From positions 21,006 to 71,732 of the forward strand of contig WIDE01000138.1 in NCBI GenBank assembly GCA_015039315.1: a stretch of 50,727 bases of DNA, given 5' to 3'. A model generated the notes under the pieces. The model worked only from the letters and a program-made list of their open reading frames with translations, did no database searches and was not told where the DNA came from. This DNA comes from Clavulina sp. PMI_390. Lineage: Eukaryota > Basidiomycota > Agaricomycetes > Cantharellales > Hydnaceae. Below are positions 26,337 through 48,495 of this stretch, in pieces. Numbering within the stretch: the first letter of the stretch is position 1; the number at the start of each line of letters is the position of its first letter. Position numbers and translations under genes: made by a program.

Positions 26337-27135
26337 TTACCAGTCTGAAGGAGGACAGAAAACGTGAGTGAATGTCGTTCCCAAAGCGGAGTTTCGGTCT
26401 ACGTGAACGAGATGATGTCATCAGAGTGGCGCACAGTATACAACACAGCGAGCTGCTCACCAGCGGCATAGTCCTTGTCATACGAGTAGGCCTGGTCTGA
26501 AGGGCAGTCACCGTATGGTGCAACCAAACACATGGCCTGAGCAGCGCCATCACTCGCTGTAACAAGAGTAGGCAAGTTGATGGCTAAGATGATAAAACAT
26601 CTATCAGATATTGTCGAAACAAATATAATAATGGAAGAGGGGACGAACAGGCATCTACAATGCTGATATCCCAGCTAATCCTCTCGCCTCCGTACTGGGC
26701 ACCAAAATCGGCATAACCGTACTCGCTTAGAACCACGCCGCTGGTGATACCAGCATCAGTGCACACGAGGCCACCATTGCAGCCGCCGGTCGCGCAGTTG
26801 GCGCCAGAGCTGTTGCAGCCAGTGCGACCCCATGCACGGATACCCTGAATATAGTCCATTTTGAATGTTTTTATTAATTTGGAGGAAGGATGAGCAAGTT
26901 GGTCGGCAGTGAGACTAGCTCTCACAATTTCAGAGTCAGCAATGTTGAAACTAGCAGAACCGTACTGTCCGATGGAAGTCCCGTATGCAACGCTCGTATC
27001 AGGGATACCATTTGGCGCCTTGCCGATGGCGGGCCAGACAGTGTACGGGCAGTTGTTGTAAAACGTGATGGTGAACGCGTTTGCAGATGAGGCGGCAACG
27101 GCTGCAACAAGAGCGATAGAAGAAGAGACCTTCAT
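26337..27135 (-). CDS. thaumatin-like secreted protein, array copy 3
   Basis: 196 residues from exons 27135-26926, 26844-26649, 26583-26461 and 26398-26337. Signal peptide MKVSSSIALVAAVAASSANA, mature start FTITFYNNCPYTVWPAIG. It belongs to the second subgroup (copies 3-5), marked by CLVAPYGDC in exon 3 and the C-terminus FTHVFCPPSDW. Eight mature cysteines. The acidic-cleft strand reads ISWDISIVDA. The start at 27135 was chosen over an upstream in-frame Met because it directly precedes the hydrophobic signal segment and matches the paralogues. Function as for the other copies; no activity can be read from sequence alone. Confidence 0.93.
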
Positions 27136-28608
27136 AGCAACTAGAAGTGACAGGATATGATACTGTGGAGTGTCGAAGCAAGAGATGAGACGAGAGAAGC
27201 TATGGTGTTCTGAGTTCATCACCACTCCACATCGAGTCTTAAGTACCTAGAGACACTTATTGTGGCAGTGCGTAGTATAGCAGTACTCGCCGAGAATAAA
27301 ACATTACTCAATCGATGTCGACCGAGGAAAGGGATGAGCAATATTGTCAAAGAAACTCGAAAATATTGACATCAACGGCTTGACAAGGGGAGTGCTATTC
27401 GATCTGTTTCAAGTTGAATACGCCCGTAGCCGAGCATTGGCTCGTCAGACGTGATCGATACGTAAAGGGTAGTAGAAGCTGATCCCATGTGCTATGAAGC
27501 CGTTGGAGACCGAAGCATGCGCTGACCATCCTATTAGGAGAGCGAACTGCAGCAGCGCCCACAAAGGGCCTATTCTGATGAGTCTGGGAGAGGCTTCATC
27601 AAAATCATTAGGAAAACGTTGTGGACAAATGAGAGGCGCCGACAAAAAGCGAGTGGTTACAGTAAACCCCCCTGGCCGAGGAAATGGACTCTTCATTGTT
27701 CACTATTTTGCCGAATGTGAAAATTCGAGCCTCGACTATAGCTGGCACATAGGGCGGATAAAAGCTGGAAGGCTAAACGAGAGGCCCGTCAAGGTCCGAA
27801 AAGGGGAGAATTTGACAGTGAAAGTATACAGTGACTTACAGTGGGAGATACAGAGCCAATAACGCTAGCTATTTTTACCCACAATGTTTTAACAAGGACC
27901 GGATAACCCCATAAGAAAGCTCCACCACTGAGGTTCGAGGTCGGCATCAGCCTCAGCAAGCCCTGAATTCCAGGTTAGCCCCTGGACTCCCAAGGAAGTG
28001 AGAGATGTTACTATAGCGTAGCCTAGAACACAGGAGAGGCTTGCTTGTTCCGGATGCTATACTACTGGTTGAATGCATCCGTCGGCATCCCCGACGGCGG
28101 GCACCACTGGTAGTAATATTGATATATCACCCCGATCAATAAAGCAGCATGAGCCGAAATCAAGGCGCTGATCCGTGCCATGCGCTTTTCGAGGTCACGC
28201 ATGCGACAAGACGGTTCAAGCGAGCATTCATACAGCAGGCTAAAGGGAAGCGCGAGCACCTGCGTGGGCTCGTGTTGCGGCCGACTCCGCCTCAAACAAC
28301 AAACAACACCCGACTGTTTCATCGGGCGAGATCTGACCGCGCAGGGATGCTCAGGTTCATATAGTAAATTATCTCCAACAAAAGCGTGGGGAAATGGGTT
28401 GATAGCTTCGATGTGTTGGGGTCCAGAGCCAATGCAGTGTTAGTCTCCTAAGTCAGAGACCTCCGCAAGCGGTTTGTTCAGAGGGGAAGATTAAGATGAA
28501 TAGATTGTATCACGTATAATCCCAAAACAATAAGACAGGATGCACCCAGACTTCCGTGTCATCGGCCCAGTAGGCTAGGGAGCGGCGGATACGCACAGTT
28601 GCCTCCAT
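27136..28608. promoter_or_regulatory. upstream region of thaumatin-like copy 3 and spacer
   Basis: The region nearest copy 3 carries GCAATATTGTCAAAG at about 27338-27352 and a second AATATTGACATCA at 27361-27373. The far end (from about 28100) matches sequence downstream of copy 5 and so is part of a duplicated block. A 122-codon open frame at 27494-27862 (+) has no motif and is not annotated. Confidence 0.5.
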
Positions 28609-29640
28609 TTACCAGTCAGTGGGAGGGCAGAAAACATGCGTGAAGGTGGTACCAAGAGCAGAGTTACGGTCTTGAAAAAATTCGAGAATTGAGCCCAGTA
28701 TTCAGGGGTAGATATTGTGAAGACATAATGTAGGCTTACCAGCAGCATAATCAGTGGCGTAAGAGTAAGCCTGGTCATCAGGGCAGCAGTCCCCGTAAGG
28801 CGCAACGAGGCACATAGCTTGAGCAGCACCATCGCTAGCAGTGACGAGGGTGGGCATGTTGATGCCTAGATTTGTGGTCAGCATCATGTTACAGGATTCA
28901 CGCGGATCCAAAGAAAGCGAGGGACATACTGGCATCAACATGGCTGAGATCCCAGCTGATCCTCTCGCCTCCGTAGTCAGCACCGAAATTGGCGTAACCG
29001 TACTCGCTCAGGATAACACCGCTAGTAATGCCGGCGTCAGTGCAGACAAGACCACCATTGCAGCCACCAGTCGCGCAGTTGGCGCCGGAGCTGTTGCACC
29101 CAGTACGTCCCCATGCGCGAATGCCCTACAGCCAATAAATAGTCGGGGAAAAAGTCAGAATTTGGACAGCAATTGGGCAAATCCAATGCATATGAGAGCA
29201 ATACGCACGATCTCAGTGTCCGAAATGCCGAAGCTGGCAGAGCCGTACTCCCCAATGGAAGTGCCGTAGGCGACGCTGGTATCAGGAACGCCATTTGGTG
29301 CCTTTCCGATGGCGGGCCAGACGGTATACGGGCAGTTGTTGTAGAAGGTGATAGTGAACGCGTTTGCCGAAGAAGCAGCGGCGACAGCAAGAGCGATGGC
29401 AGTTGAGAACTTCATAGCGGGAGAAGAATGGTAGTGCGCGATGTGGGGGATCTTAGCGAAGAGGAGAAGCTGTGGATGCTCTGAGGGATCGACAAAGGTG
29501 CTCCACTTTGCTCGTTTTATACCACACCATTCCACTAGTGTTTCATAAAGTAGGCTTCGCCGAAAAAAATATTGATTAAGCTGGATCGACCAAAGGGAAA
29601 CAGGACAATATTGTCAAAGCGACACCACCAATATCCATAT
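28489..29640. repeat. segmental duplication block, first copy (carries thaumatin-like copy 4)
   Basis: The block downstream and upstream of copy 4 corresponds to the block around copy 5 at about 30955-32130, offset 2466-2470 bases. The 12 bases GATTAAGATGAA start at 28489 here and at 30955 there. Similarity then continues through the 3' region, all four exons, the TATA region and the AATATTGTC element. Weaker similarity extends further left, to about 28100 versus 30540 (AATATTGATATAT). Outer edges are approximate. Confidence 0.75.
28609..29415 (-). CDS. thaumatin-like secreted protein, array copy 4 (extra cysteine)
   Basis: 196 residues from exons 29415-29209, 29125-28930, 28865-28740 and 28670-28609. 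Signal peptide MKFSTAIALAVAAASSANA, then FTITFYNNCPYTVWPAIG. It has GIRAWGRTGC, GGCNGGLVC, ISWDLSHVDA, CLVAPYGDCCPDD and the ending FTHVFCPPTDW. Exon 3 is 126 nt rather than 123 because of an additional codon that gives a CC pair (28783-28788). The mature protein therefore has nine cysteines, an odd number that leaves one free or allows dimerisation. It lies in a block duplicated with copy 5. A TATAAAAC box lies near 29513-29520 on the minus strand. Confidence 0.93.
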
Positions 29641-44485: not shown

Positions 44486-47400
44486 ATGTCTTCTGAGGTG
44501 GAAACCCCCCCTGAAGACGAAATCGGACGCGCGGTGAGTGCTGCAGTTGAACCTGTGGGCACTAGGCAAGTTCATGCGGTAACAGACCATCATCGTGCCT
44601 CTAATTATTCTGCTCCCTTAAAGCTATGCTACTCTGTGTGGTAACAAAATAAAAGAGGATCCTGAAGACAAAGACGTGAAGGCATTCGCGACGCCTTCTG
44701 GTATGTCTTCCCTACCGGATATTCTTACCATCTTGGCGGTAGTTGAGTATCTAACGTTTGACCAGATCCGGAATCCTTGAAGTCCTCGAAGTATTTTCAC
44801 GACACTCTTTCAAACTTCTTGTCACGAGGTTTGATATTCGACCAAATCCTTCACTGTCCAATCAGTCTAACGTTCTCGAACCTTTTATAGTTGTCATATT
44901 CAGGGACGATATAGAGCCACCTTTGCATCAAGAGTCTTCCCATCCTCGTGAGCCAATCGAGTGGGAGCTATGGGAAGACTTCATGAAAGTTGGGACTGTG
45001 TAAGCGACCTTCATTCCATCATTCTTGGTATGATGTCGCTGAATCATATCAACTGCAGTGAGCATTGCTCCTCTATGATGTGTCAAAGGGAAGTTATCTG
45101 CTGCCTTGTGTTTCACGAACCCGAATCCGTAATTGCTATGCGCAAGCTTGGAGGCTGGGACAAGCATTGCGAATGTGGAGAGTTCATAGAGCCAGAGCCA
45201 GAGCATATTCCGCTGATAAGATACTCCCAAGTTGTTTCTGACGCACTCGCTTGTAAGCAAAGTGCATTTTCTCTTTTTCATATGCTCGTGACTGACATAG
45301 TTGTCGATAGCTCGTCCACAAACGCTCAACCTTCGTACGGACTGTCTTTTGGACCCGGTCTATGAGCCGAGATACTCCGGAACCACTGGGTTCCTCGCAC
45401 CGGCTGATGCTGTCTTGAGCCATGTCGCATACCCGGTGCCTGGAGACATCATCGACTGCCTGTTTCAGTTCCGCACATTCATGTGCGTGCCAGGTCACCA
45501 GGAAGGGGCTGTGAAGCTTGAGGACGGCCAGAAACGCGAGAGCCCCTTTCTTCCTTTGGAAGACGAAGACGAAGGGGACTGGGATTATTCGCATCTGAGG
45601 CAGCTATCAAATCCGTGGCCGTTGAAGTTGCACCCAACCAATCAAGAGCGGTTGAAGATGCGTTTGAGCATACAGGACTCTCTGAATCGAGGATGTATTG
45701 AGACTGCACTGATACCGTCACCACAGAGTCTCGCTACCCGCGAAACGTGCAAACCAGAGGTGAAATCTACGATTGGTCCCTCTGGTAAACTTTATTTTGT
45801 TGGTTCTTTACCATGCAATGGCACGAATCTAACCCATGGGTTCTCAGAATCAGGGGACTTCCCTCTATCTAAGGATAGTCTTGATAAGTTCATGCTACGA
45901 GGTACGCTTCGTTTCGCTGATTGATATCATTTCGCATGCTCGGATAAATAACATCTTTGTAGTTGCCATCTTTCGAGATGACATGGAGCCAGGTGCCTGT
46001 GGCATCCTACACCCTCGCGAACCAATTGAATGGGACCTGTGTGAAGACCTGGCCAAATTTGGGATAATGTGAGTGATTTCTCATCCTTTCACCCCTAGGC
46101 CCCGAAACGTCACTAATCAACTGAAACTAAGCGAGCATTGCTCTTCTATGTATGAGGATGGTGCACGCATCTGCTGTGTCGTATTTCGGGATCCTAGCTC
46201 CCTGATTGCGTCTCGCAAAATCTGGAAATCGTATAGCTCGTGGGGTGAATTTATTGGAGTAGACGACAATCATATCACACTCTTCCGATACTGTCAGATT
46301 GTTTCTGACTCCCTCGCTTGTAAGCTTTCTCGCCTTATTCCATTGCAAGTTCTTGACGCATGACGGTTTTATAAGCTCGCCCCCAGTCCCTGAAGCTTCA
46401 TACGGAGTGTCTGATGGAACCCGTCTACGAGCCGAGGTACAACGGCACCACCGGATTTTTGGCGCCCCTCAATGATATCCTTGGCCGCGTTGCTCCCCCT
46501 GTGCCCGGCGATGTGGTCAACCGTCTCCACCACTTTCGCACTTTTACTTGTGTGCCAGGGCACCAAGCTGGTGCAGTAAAGCTTGAAGGTGACGAGAACC
46601 GCCCGAACCCATTCCTTGATGACAACTATGACGGGGATGGGTATGAGCATGTCTGCCCACCTTCGAATCCTTGGCCGTTCAAAGTCCAGCCGACATATCA
46701 TGAGGTTCGGCAGATGCGCGAAAGTATACAAGCCTCACTCGAACAAGAATTTGCTGAGACAAAGCTAACACCATCTCTCGGGGAGCTTGCCAATCGCAAC
46801 GAGGTTGTTAAGAAAGAGCTGCTAAAAGTTGCTCCCACCATAACTCCAAAGCCGACAGTCTTTAGTGTGGCAAAGAACGGTCTGAAGGGAAACCTTAGGC
46901 TAATAAGACCGAGTGCTTATGACCCTCGTAAGCTGAACTACCTCTGATCTGATTGACTGCATTCACACTCAACATATTCTGCATTTTGAGGGTGTATTGT
47001 GATTGTTTCCGTTCCCGTCAAGAAGGGCGGCTCCAATATCCCGCCATCTGTTGCATCAGTTATGAAAATTCGAGGGTGCTTTAAGAGATATGGCCCAATG
47101 TGAGTCTCATCACTCCAGAACCAACTGAAAATCTACGATATTCTCACGCCCGAACTTAGATCTCATGTCCTTGGCTATGAAGCAAAGGGTGCGACGACGC
47201 GCGAGTATTATGTCACATTCAAGGAGGCCGCGTCAGCTGCGAAGGTCTACGCGGAATCAGAATGCGTTCAAGGGCGCAATCCTCACCTCACGCTTCAGAG
47301 ATGTGTTCCGCTCCCAGCTTCCTACGGGGATTGGCTGGCTCGCTTCTGTGTTGGTATGCAACTTTCTCTGCAATTTCTTCTCCTTACGACTATTGAAATT

Positions 47401-48495
47401 GTCTTCTCAGATAAAACAGTGCTGCCAGACAATTGCGTTTATCTTTCTTCTACGCACCCATCTAACCTCAACGCCACTCTCACTCTCTCGCACGCAGCTT
47501 GCGAACCGGCGATTGAACCCATCCCGCAAGTAACCCTTCCTTCCACTAGCGTTCCCCTGGGTAAGCTTTTCCTTGTCAACTGGCCGATAAAGTGGATACC
47601 AAATACTATGTGATTGTAGATCAAGGTGCGTCATACGTCCCACAGTCCACGGAGACCAAGGCGTCGATGAAGGCGATGAAGGCGATAAACAACGGCGAGT
47701 TTTTGGTCTCAATTGGGAGATTCATCAGCTATCTAAATCTTCTTGATAGTCCTGCTGCGAGCTGAGGAGATCCGGGGTTCGCTACTTCCTACAAAGGGGG
47801 TGCCTCGCGTGTCTGCATTGGTACGACTCAGTGGCTTCTTCTTTCTCTCCCTTCTTGCTACGTTCATCTAACCCATTCCCACTGCTATCCAGGAGATGAT
47901 CAAGACCGCTGGCCGGCTATATGATATCGAGCTTGCGCTCATGACATATCCAGAGATTCCACGACCAGACCGGCTGAGTAAGTCATTGCAAAGCGCGGGA
48001 CTTCCTCGCCACTCACACATTTCTCCAGCATGCATTCTCCAAGCCATATCCCACATTCCCGACTTCATCATCCCCGACAATGATATTTATAACATCCGCA
48101 GGCGATGTCAGCATTTGCTGGGGTCACCAGCCTCCGCCGTCGGTCCCCCTACCATCGCTCCTTCTCTTTCTGGCAAGACTTTCGTTGTCCCTTCCGTTAG
48201 CTACAACACGTTACCCTCTCATCCTGTCCTCCAAAACTCGCTTCCCGGACGGCCAATCCTGCCCGCGCCCCCTTCGACTCGGGATAAACGCACAGGACCC
48301 CCACAAAGCATGGCTCAAAAACCCCAACTGCCCTCACACCTCCACCAACCAGGGATCAACCAAAATCTCAGCTTAAGCAACAGCCATCACTTTGGTTTGG
48401 CCGACCGTCGCGTCTCTGTGAAGCGAGAGCGAGAATATGACATGGACCGGCCCGACTCTCGCGATGACCTGGATGTAAAGCGCTTGAGATATTAG
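44486..48495 (+). CDS. protein with three RRM-like repeat modules, undescribed architecture
   Basis: Sixteen exons: 44486-44533, 44658-44700, 44766-44828, 44891-44999, 45059-45252, 45311-45901, 45963-46068, 46132-46319, 46376-46927, 46991-47099, 47160-47353, 47411-47560, 47620-47625, 47750-47820, 47893-47977 and 48029-48495, giving 991 residues. Three modules (about 52-152, 350-447, 632-732) each show strands like VVIFRDD, an amphipathic helix, EHCSSM, and a third strand such as ICCLVF or YYVTF, in an RRM-like order. Modules A and B are followed by homologous linkers (VYEPRYxGTTGFLAP, PVPGD, VPGHQxGAVKLE). The C-terminus is Ser/Pro-rich and ends with a basic patch (VKRERE, DVKRLRY) resembling a nuclear signal. 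RNP1 aromatic residues are poorly kept, so RNA binding is uncertain. The 6-nt exon is optional in frame. I do not know a named family. Confidence 0.72.

Follow-up and report, generated by a model that had tools for sequence, protein, structure and literature searches.

A candidate three-module gene of Clavulina sp. PMI_390 whose third module resembles a divergent RNA recognition motif

PTB, HuR and Nab3 are multi-RRM regulators, in which several RNA recognition motifs (RRMs) are carried by one protein and some of the motifs are degenerate. Nup53 dimerizes through its RRM, as described in an excerpt of PMC6881172. Here we analyse positions 44486-48495 of a 50,727-nucleotide stretch of DNA (the window) from Clavulina sp. 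PMI_390, a fungus of the Cantharellales whose co-culture with algae is reported in an excerpt of PMC6634985. Sequence evidence supports the encoding of three modules, A, B and C, by one gene at this locus. Computation supports module C as a divergent RRM, and C, taken with the motif before it and the C-terminal tail, has the appearance of an entire member of a gene family that is dispersed and partly in tandem.

The alignment of the C domains with RRM_1 (PF00076) spans helices 1 to 2 and takes in the RNP1 strand and the G-x-I turn, but the domains score below the gathering score, have no RNP2 aromatic, and add both a conserved C-terminal segment of GDWLARFC type and a phase-2 intron directly after helix 1. 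With the RRM of Nup35/Nup53 (PF14605) the family shares the position of an RRM beside low-complexity sequence. Unlike PTB, HuR and Nab3, modules A and B have long linkers (VYEPRYxGTTGFLAP) that have no relative in the searches run and that, as searched, occur in Clavulina only.

Gene structure

Rebuilt by hand from splice signals, the gene comprises 16 exons between an ATG at 44486 and a stop codon ending at 48495 (Table 1), and this model translates without interruption into 992 codons, the stop counted. The coding frame of exons 6 and 9 contains no stop, as compared with 9-13 in the two remaining frames. Alternative splice choices are possible at exons 1-2 and 12-15, and the NCBI model departs at several of them; a GC donor at 44566 combined with an exon 2 starting at 44624 likewise keeps the frame open, as judged by eye. 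A preliminary description of this DNA had given exon sizes, intron phases of 1, 2, 1 and residue positions for the three modules, all of which were reproduced in the rebuilt model; module C does retain the exon sizes and phases of A and B despite its divergence. The exon 3 peptide DTLSNFLSR aligns to DSLDKFMLR, which precedes module B.

The NCBI model DL93DRAFT_375576 (P0008, 501 amino acids) maps exon by exon onto the window and covers module C and the tail only. Beginning at 46619 as it does, it would place an A/B gene ending in or before exon 9 next to a separate C gene that starts within exon 9. We regard such a pair of genes as decidedly improbable, because the reading frame that A and B conserve crosses the 552-nt exon 9 from module B without a stop and runs into the module C preamble, and because the junction 46927/46991, used in our model, is present in P0008 itself. 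Moreover, the first 35 residues of P0008 lie in a frame other than the A/B-conserved one, and its intron at 46724-46785 cuts out sequence conserved between A and B. P0008 also reads through 47354-47410 and 47978-48028, both of which are introns in the rebuilt model, and extends exon 13 to about 47693. Protein searches, limited to targets of about 0.55-1.75 times the query length, returned no other protein matching the A/B part. On the evidence of the reading frame we did not adopt two separate genes, and the single gene proposed in the preliminary description was kept.

Module C and its family

A profile of ten C domains matched PDB chains with a best E value of 2.3e-4, the matches covering about positions 22-88 of 103; of the 91 chains matched, many are variants of a single protein, and 59 of the 60 that were listed are named or known as RRM proteins. 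These matches support the RRM-likeness first proposed for C. In a comparison with Pfam, window C scores 13.1 bits against RRM_1 (PF00076) and the best member 16.0, below the gathering score of 20.7. None of the scanned C-family members attains a Pfam or NCBIfam cut-off, and NCBIfam gave nothing for the proteins P0001, P0002 and P0006-P0008. Window C has no match to Nup35_RRM_2 (PF14605); for the family member on contig C274 this is the only Pfam match listed (E 0.002, 18.4 bits, cut-off 27). The AlphaFold model of a relative, P0007, shows a beta-alpha-beta-beta-alpha-beta order (E46-52, H70-80, E83-89, E96-103, H106-117, E128-130), albeit at low confidence, with a predicted local distance difference test (pLDDT) score of 50-68 for the block, and its further comparisons gave no decisive match. 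Within the domain, an RNP1-like strand R-x-Y-[YF]-x-x-F is invariant, Tyr-[Tyr/Phe] being present in ten of ten C domains, and the RNP2 aromatic is absent from the first strand in all ten, the places having been assigned by eye in both cases. The C domains therefore do not have the aromatics in both RNP1 and RNP2 that define a canonical RNA-binding RRM.

Genome searches with C and two relatives identified nine further C-type places, of which contig C6 has six (94-114 kb), C20 two and C274 one; the places on C6 share one strand, and so do those on C20. Eight of the nine were modelled across both exons, the first measuring 106-121 nt and the second 191-200 nt, with phases as in window C. The exon ends were picked among several candidates, those at C274 were set by hand, and one exon 2 ends at a contig end. 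The protein P0007, encoded on an 18,660-base contig, is a further member that the assembly searches did not return. A pattern search for the preamble NGLxGxLRLxRPxxYxP before the phase-1 donor found it at window C, C6c, C6f and C274 and, in degenerate form, at C6d, and did not find it at C6a, C6b, C6e, C20a or C20b; P0007 carries it too. The layout of the family is a short preamble, the divergent RRM, a segment with a THP motif, a long Pro/Ser-rich tract and a putative bipartite nuclear import signal at the C terminus.

Of six gene pairs, three yielded a dS value, and in these the nonsynonymous rate (dN) is far below the synonymous rate (dS); the other three are saturated. A gene beside the C-family members, possibly a nucleoside transporter, is copied on C6 and C20 (L014 8553-9839; L016 425-2163), and two aligned pieces of the copies are 92% and 78% identical. 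Because this copy occurs in both arrays, it was considered whether the C6 and C20 arrays are alleles or a hypervariable locus; in view of these identities and of the low dN, the idea was dropped. The protein matches, two in one search and one in another while a third gave none, all came from Clavulina sp. PMI_390, and no relatives were found in other species, with a tool that needs shared five-residue words and limits length, so that distant relatives may escape it. No work on the C family was found in the literature, as judged by titles or the starts of abstracts.

Some further observations concern individual members. C20b (L016 7250-8000), the ninth place, looks truncated: it retains a stretch resembling exon 1 and the first part of exon 2, the remainder of the domain being absent, and is possibly a decayed member. 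The C274 member (L017 3619-3825) and window exon 16 share a segment ISHIPDxIIP...RRC, which has no separate tblastn match in the C6 and C20 members, although in C6e a long alignment of 27% identity passes through it; perhaps the family splits into two subfamilies. Sequence downstream of the C RRM in the protein has a weak match at G000:C198:314920-315258 (E 0.15).

Modules A and B and their relation to C

Modules A and B have the same residue at 148 of 268 aligned codons, in an alignment that spans nearly their whole length and includes the linker, which bears out the similarity and the duplicated linker described earlier; their identity is about 54%. Differences at codon positions 1, 2 and 3 number 80, 66 and 163, so that the third position has changed most, and a dN of 0.38 against a dS of about 2.5, which is near saturation, points to an old duplication with both copies under constraint. 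Elsewhere in the genome no other A/B locus was found up to E 10 (best candidates scored).

Any relation of this pair to C would be more distant. In pairwise comparison C scores no better against A or B than shuffled sequence does (221 and 137 of 500 shuffles, respectively, score as high). With the HMMER profile of C, 9 of 1,000 shuffles equal or exceed B in score, and A does not figure among the 15 matches listed. Alignment of A/B with the C family by hhalign is in register over 36 columns (P 0.0071, probability 5.4%) and brings the phase-2 introns together at one aligned residue. Among 200 column shuffles, 1 reaches the score of this first match. A second alignment pair over the same stretch gave a probability of 1.4% and P 0.038, and with the profile extended beyond the RRM the tail was unmatched. 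A simple intron-density model puts at about 4e-4 the chance that such an exon pair recurs among the eight pairs upstream; the model takes 15 introns per 2976 nt, rests on our own assumptions and uses size ranges from the modelled relatives and B. Because the intron positions match and the profile match, weak as it is, is in register, we consider it likely that A/B and C share descent.

Several results leave the RRM nature of A and B in doubt: neither has a Pfam match, the PDB gave two chance-level matches (E 1.8), the AlphaFold model of module B is uninformative (pLDDT 38), and the hhalign probability is low. Support for classing A and B as RRMs is thus weak, and of the three RRM-like modules announced in the preliminary description C stands more firmly than the other two. 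In the hhalign alignment A has Cys-Cys where C has its two RNP1-like tyrosines, and the same tyrosines face cysteines in B.

The preliminary description also proposed an ancient intragenic triplication, which these data do not establish. C has the preamble, RRM and tail of the dispersed family and A/B-type modules were found in this gene alone, which argues against C as simply a third copy; a fusion of the A/B pair with a gene of the family would fit at least as well, and so would a very old duplication followed by divergence.

Tail, function and neighbouring features

The gene ends in a tail, KR-x(11-17)-KRx[KR]x-stop, that is shared with six relatives (C6a, C6c, C6d, C6e, C20a and C274). For C6b and C20b the end could not be placed, C6f extends beyond its contig, and P0007 as modelled by NCBI ends without the tail. 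By way of control, the shorter pattern KRx[KR]x-stop, with the first KR left off, was counted across all six frames of the window; it occurs three times, one of them in this gene. A refined consensus for the bipartite nuclear localization signal (NLS), KRX10-12K(K/R)X(K/R), is given in an excerpt of PMC3121794; two of the seven tail spacers (11, 12) lie within the KRX10-12 range stated there and five are longer (14, 14, 14, 15, 17).

The protein may be a nuclear regulatory protein. The tail would mediate nuclear import, and C, which keeps the RNP1-like strand and lacks the RNP2 aromatic, would probably contact RNA or single-stranded nucleic acid through its RNP1-like tyrosines. Upstream, one module was duplicated together with its long linker to give A and B, and because Cys-Cys occupies the aligned places of those tyrosines, A and B would be likelier to bind protein than to read RNA. 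We lean towards this account, a single nuclear protein with three RRM-type modules of which C binds nucleic acid and A/B bind protein. The sequence itself shows the open gene structure, the A/B duplication, the C family and the common tail motif, whereas the functions are inferred. A bolder extension of the account, in which a lineage-restricted nuclear RRM family expanded partly in tandem in Clavulina and one member turned from an RNA reader into a three-module protein hub, its A/B modules exchanging both RNP1 aromatics for Cys-Cys and acquiring a long conserved partner-binding linker, is speculative and we give it little credence.

Other explanations account for parts of these data. The C-family RRMs could be protein-binding or dimerizing modules like those of Nup35/Nup53, with no RNA binding; the first strand without an aromatic, the C274 member's match to Nup35_RRM_2 and the dimerization of Nup53 are consistent with this, but the RNP1-like tyrosines are conserved and nearly all listed PDB profile matches are RRMs of RNA-binding proteins, so that we find it possible but rather unlikely. 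A little less credible is the view that modules A and B represent an orphan domain of their own with no relation to the RRM, joined by chance to a C-family gene with which its blueprint agrees by coincidence. The searches run did return no family for A/B, the C HMMER profile does not clearly prefer A or B over shuffles, and the hhalign probability and the fold prediction for B are both poor; against this, the agreement of intron positions, phases and spacing would be a rare accident under our model, and the in-register match is seldom equalled by shuffles. We have the same degree of doubt about an origin of all three modules by duplication inside this gene, with the C-only genes as later shortened copies. 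The identical exon blueprint of all three modules speaks for it, but the C part shows the layout of the family all the way from its preamble to its tail and A/B searches matched no other locus, while the direction of change could be polarised only with related species.

Table 1. Features of the locus (window positions)
Feature	Position	Strand	Details
Exon 1, ATG start	44486..44533	+	splice signals, translation
Exons 2 (44658-44700) and 3 (44766-44828), upstream of module A	44658..44828	+	splice signals, translation
Module A, RRM-like	44891..45252	+	exons 44891-44999 (109 nt) and 45059-45252 (194 nt); phases 1/2/1
Exon 6, module A linker (VYEPRYSGTTGFLAP), in frame up to module B start	45311..45901	+	
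Module B, RRM-like	45963..46319	+	exons 45963-46068 (106 nt) and 46132-46319 (188 nt); phases 1/2/1
Exon 9, module B linker; C family preamble (NGLKGNLRLIRPSAYDP) from about 46876	46376..46927	+	
Module C, putative divergent RRM	46991..47353	+	exons 46991-47099 (109 nt) and 47160-47353 (194 nt); phases 1/2/1
Exon 12, C family segment LPDNCVYLSSTHP ... EPIP	47411..47560	+	NCBI model reads through preceding intron
Exons 13-15 (47620-47625, 47750-47820, 47893-47977)	47620..47977	+	
Exon 16: C274-like segment, Pro/Ser-rich tract, bipartite NLS-like tail KR-x17-KRLRY-stop	48029..48495	+	

Elsewhere in the window, two neighbouring open frames on the minus strand (26584-27246 and 29155-29613) both contain ITFYNNCPYTVWPAIGKAPNG; they are putatively thaumatin-like and probably a duplicate pair.

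The public model of the C-bearing gene appears to be truncated and to begin in a wrong frame. Should the three modules be of common descent, intron positions would have preserved a trace of kinship after pairwise similarity was lost, and one fungal lineage would have expanded and remodelled an RRM family.
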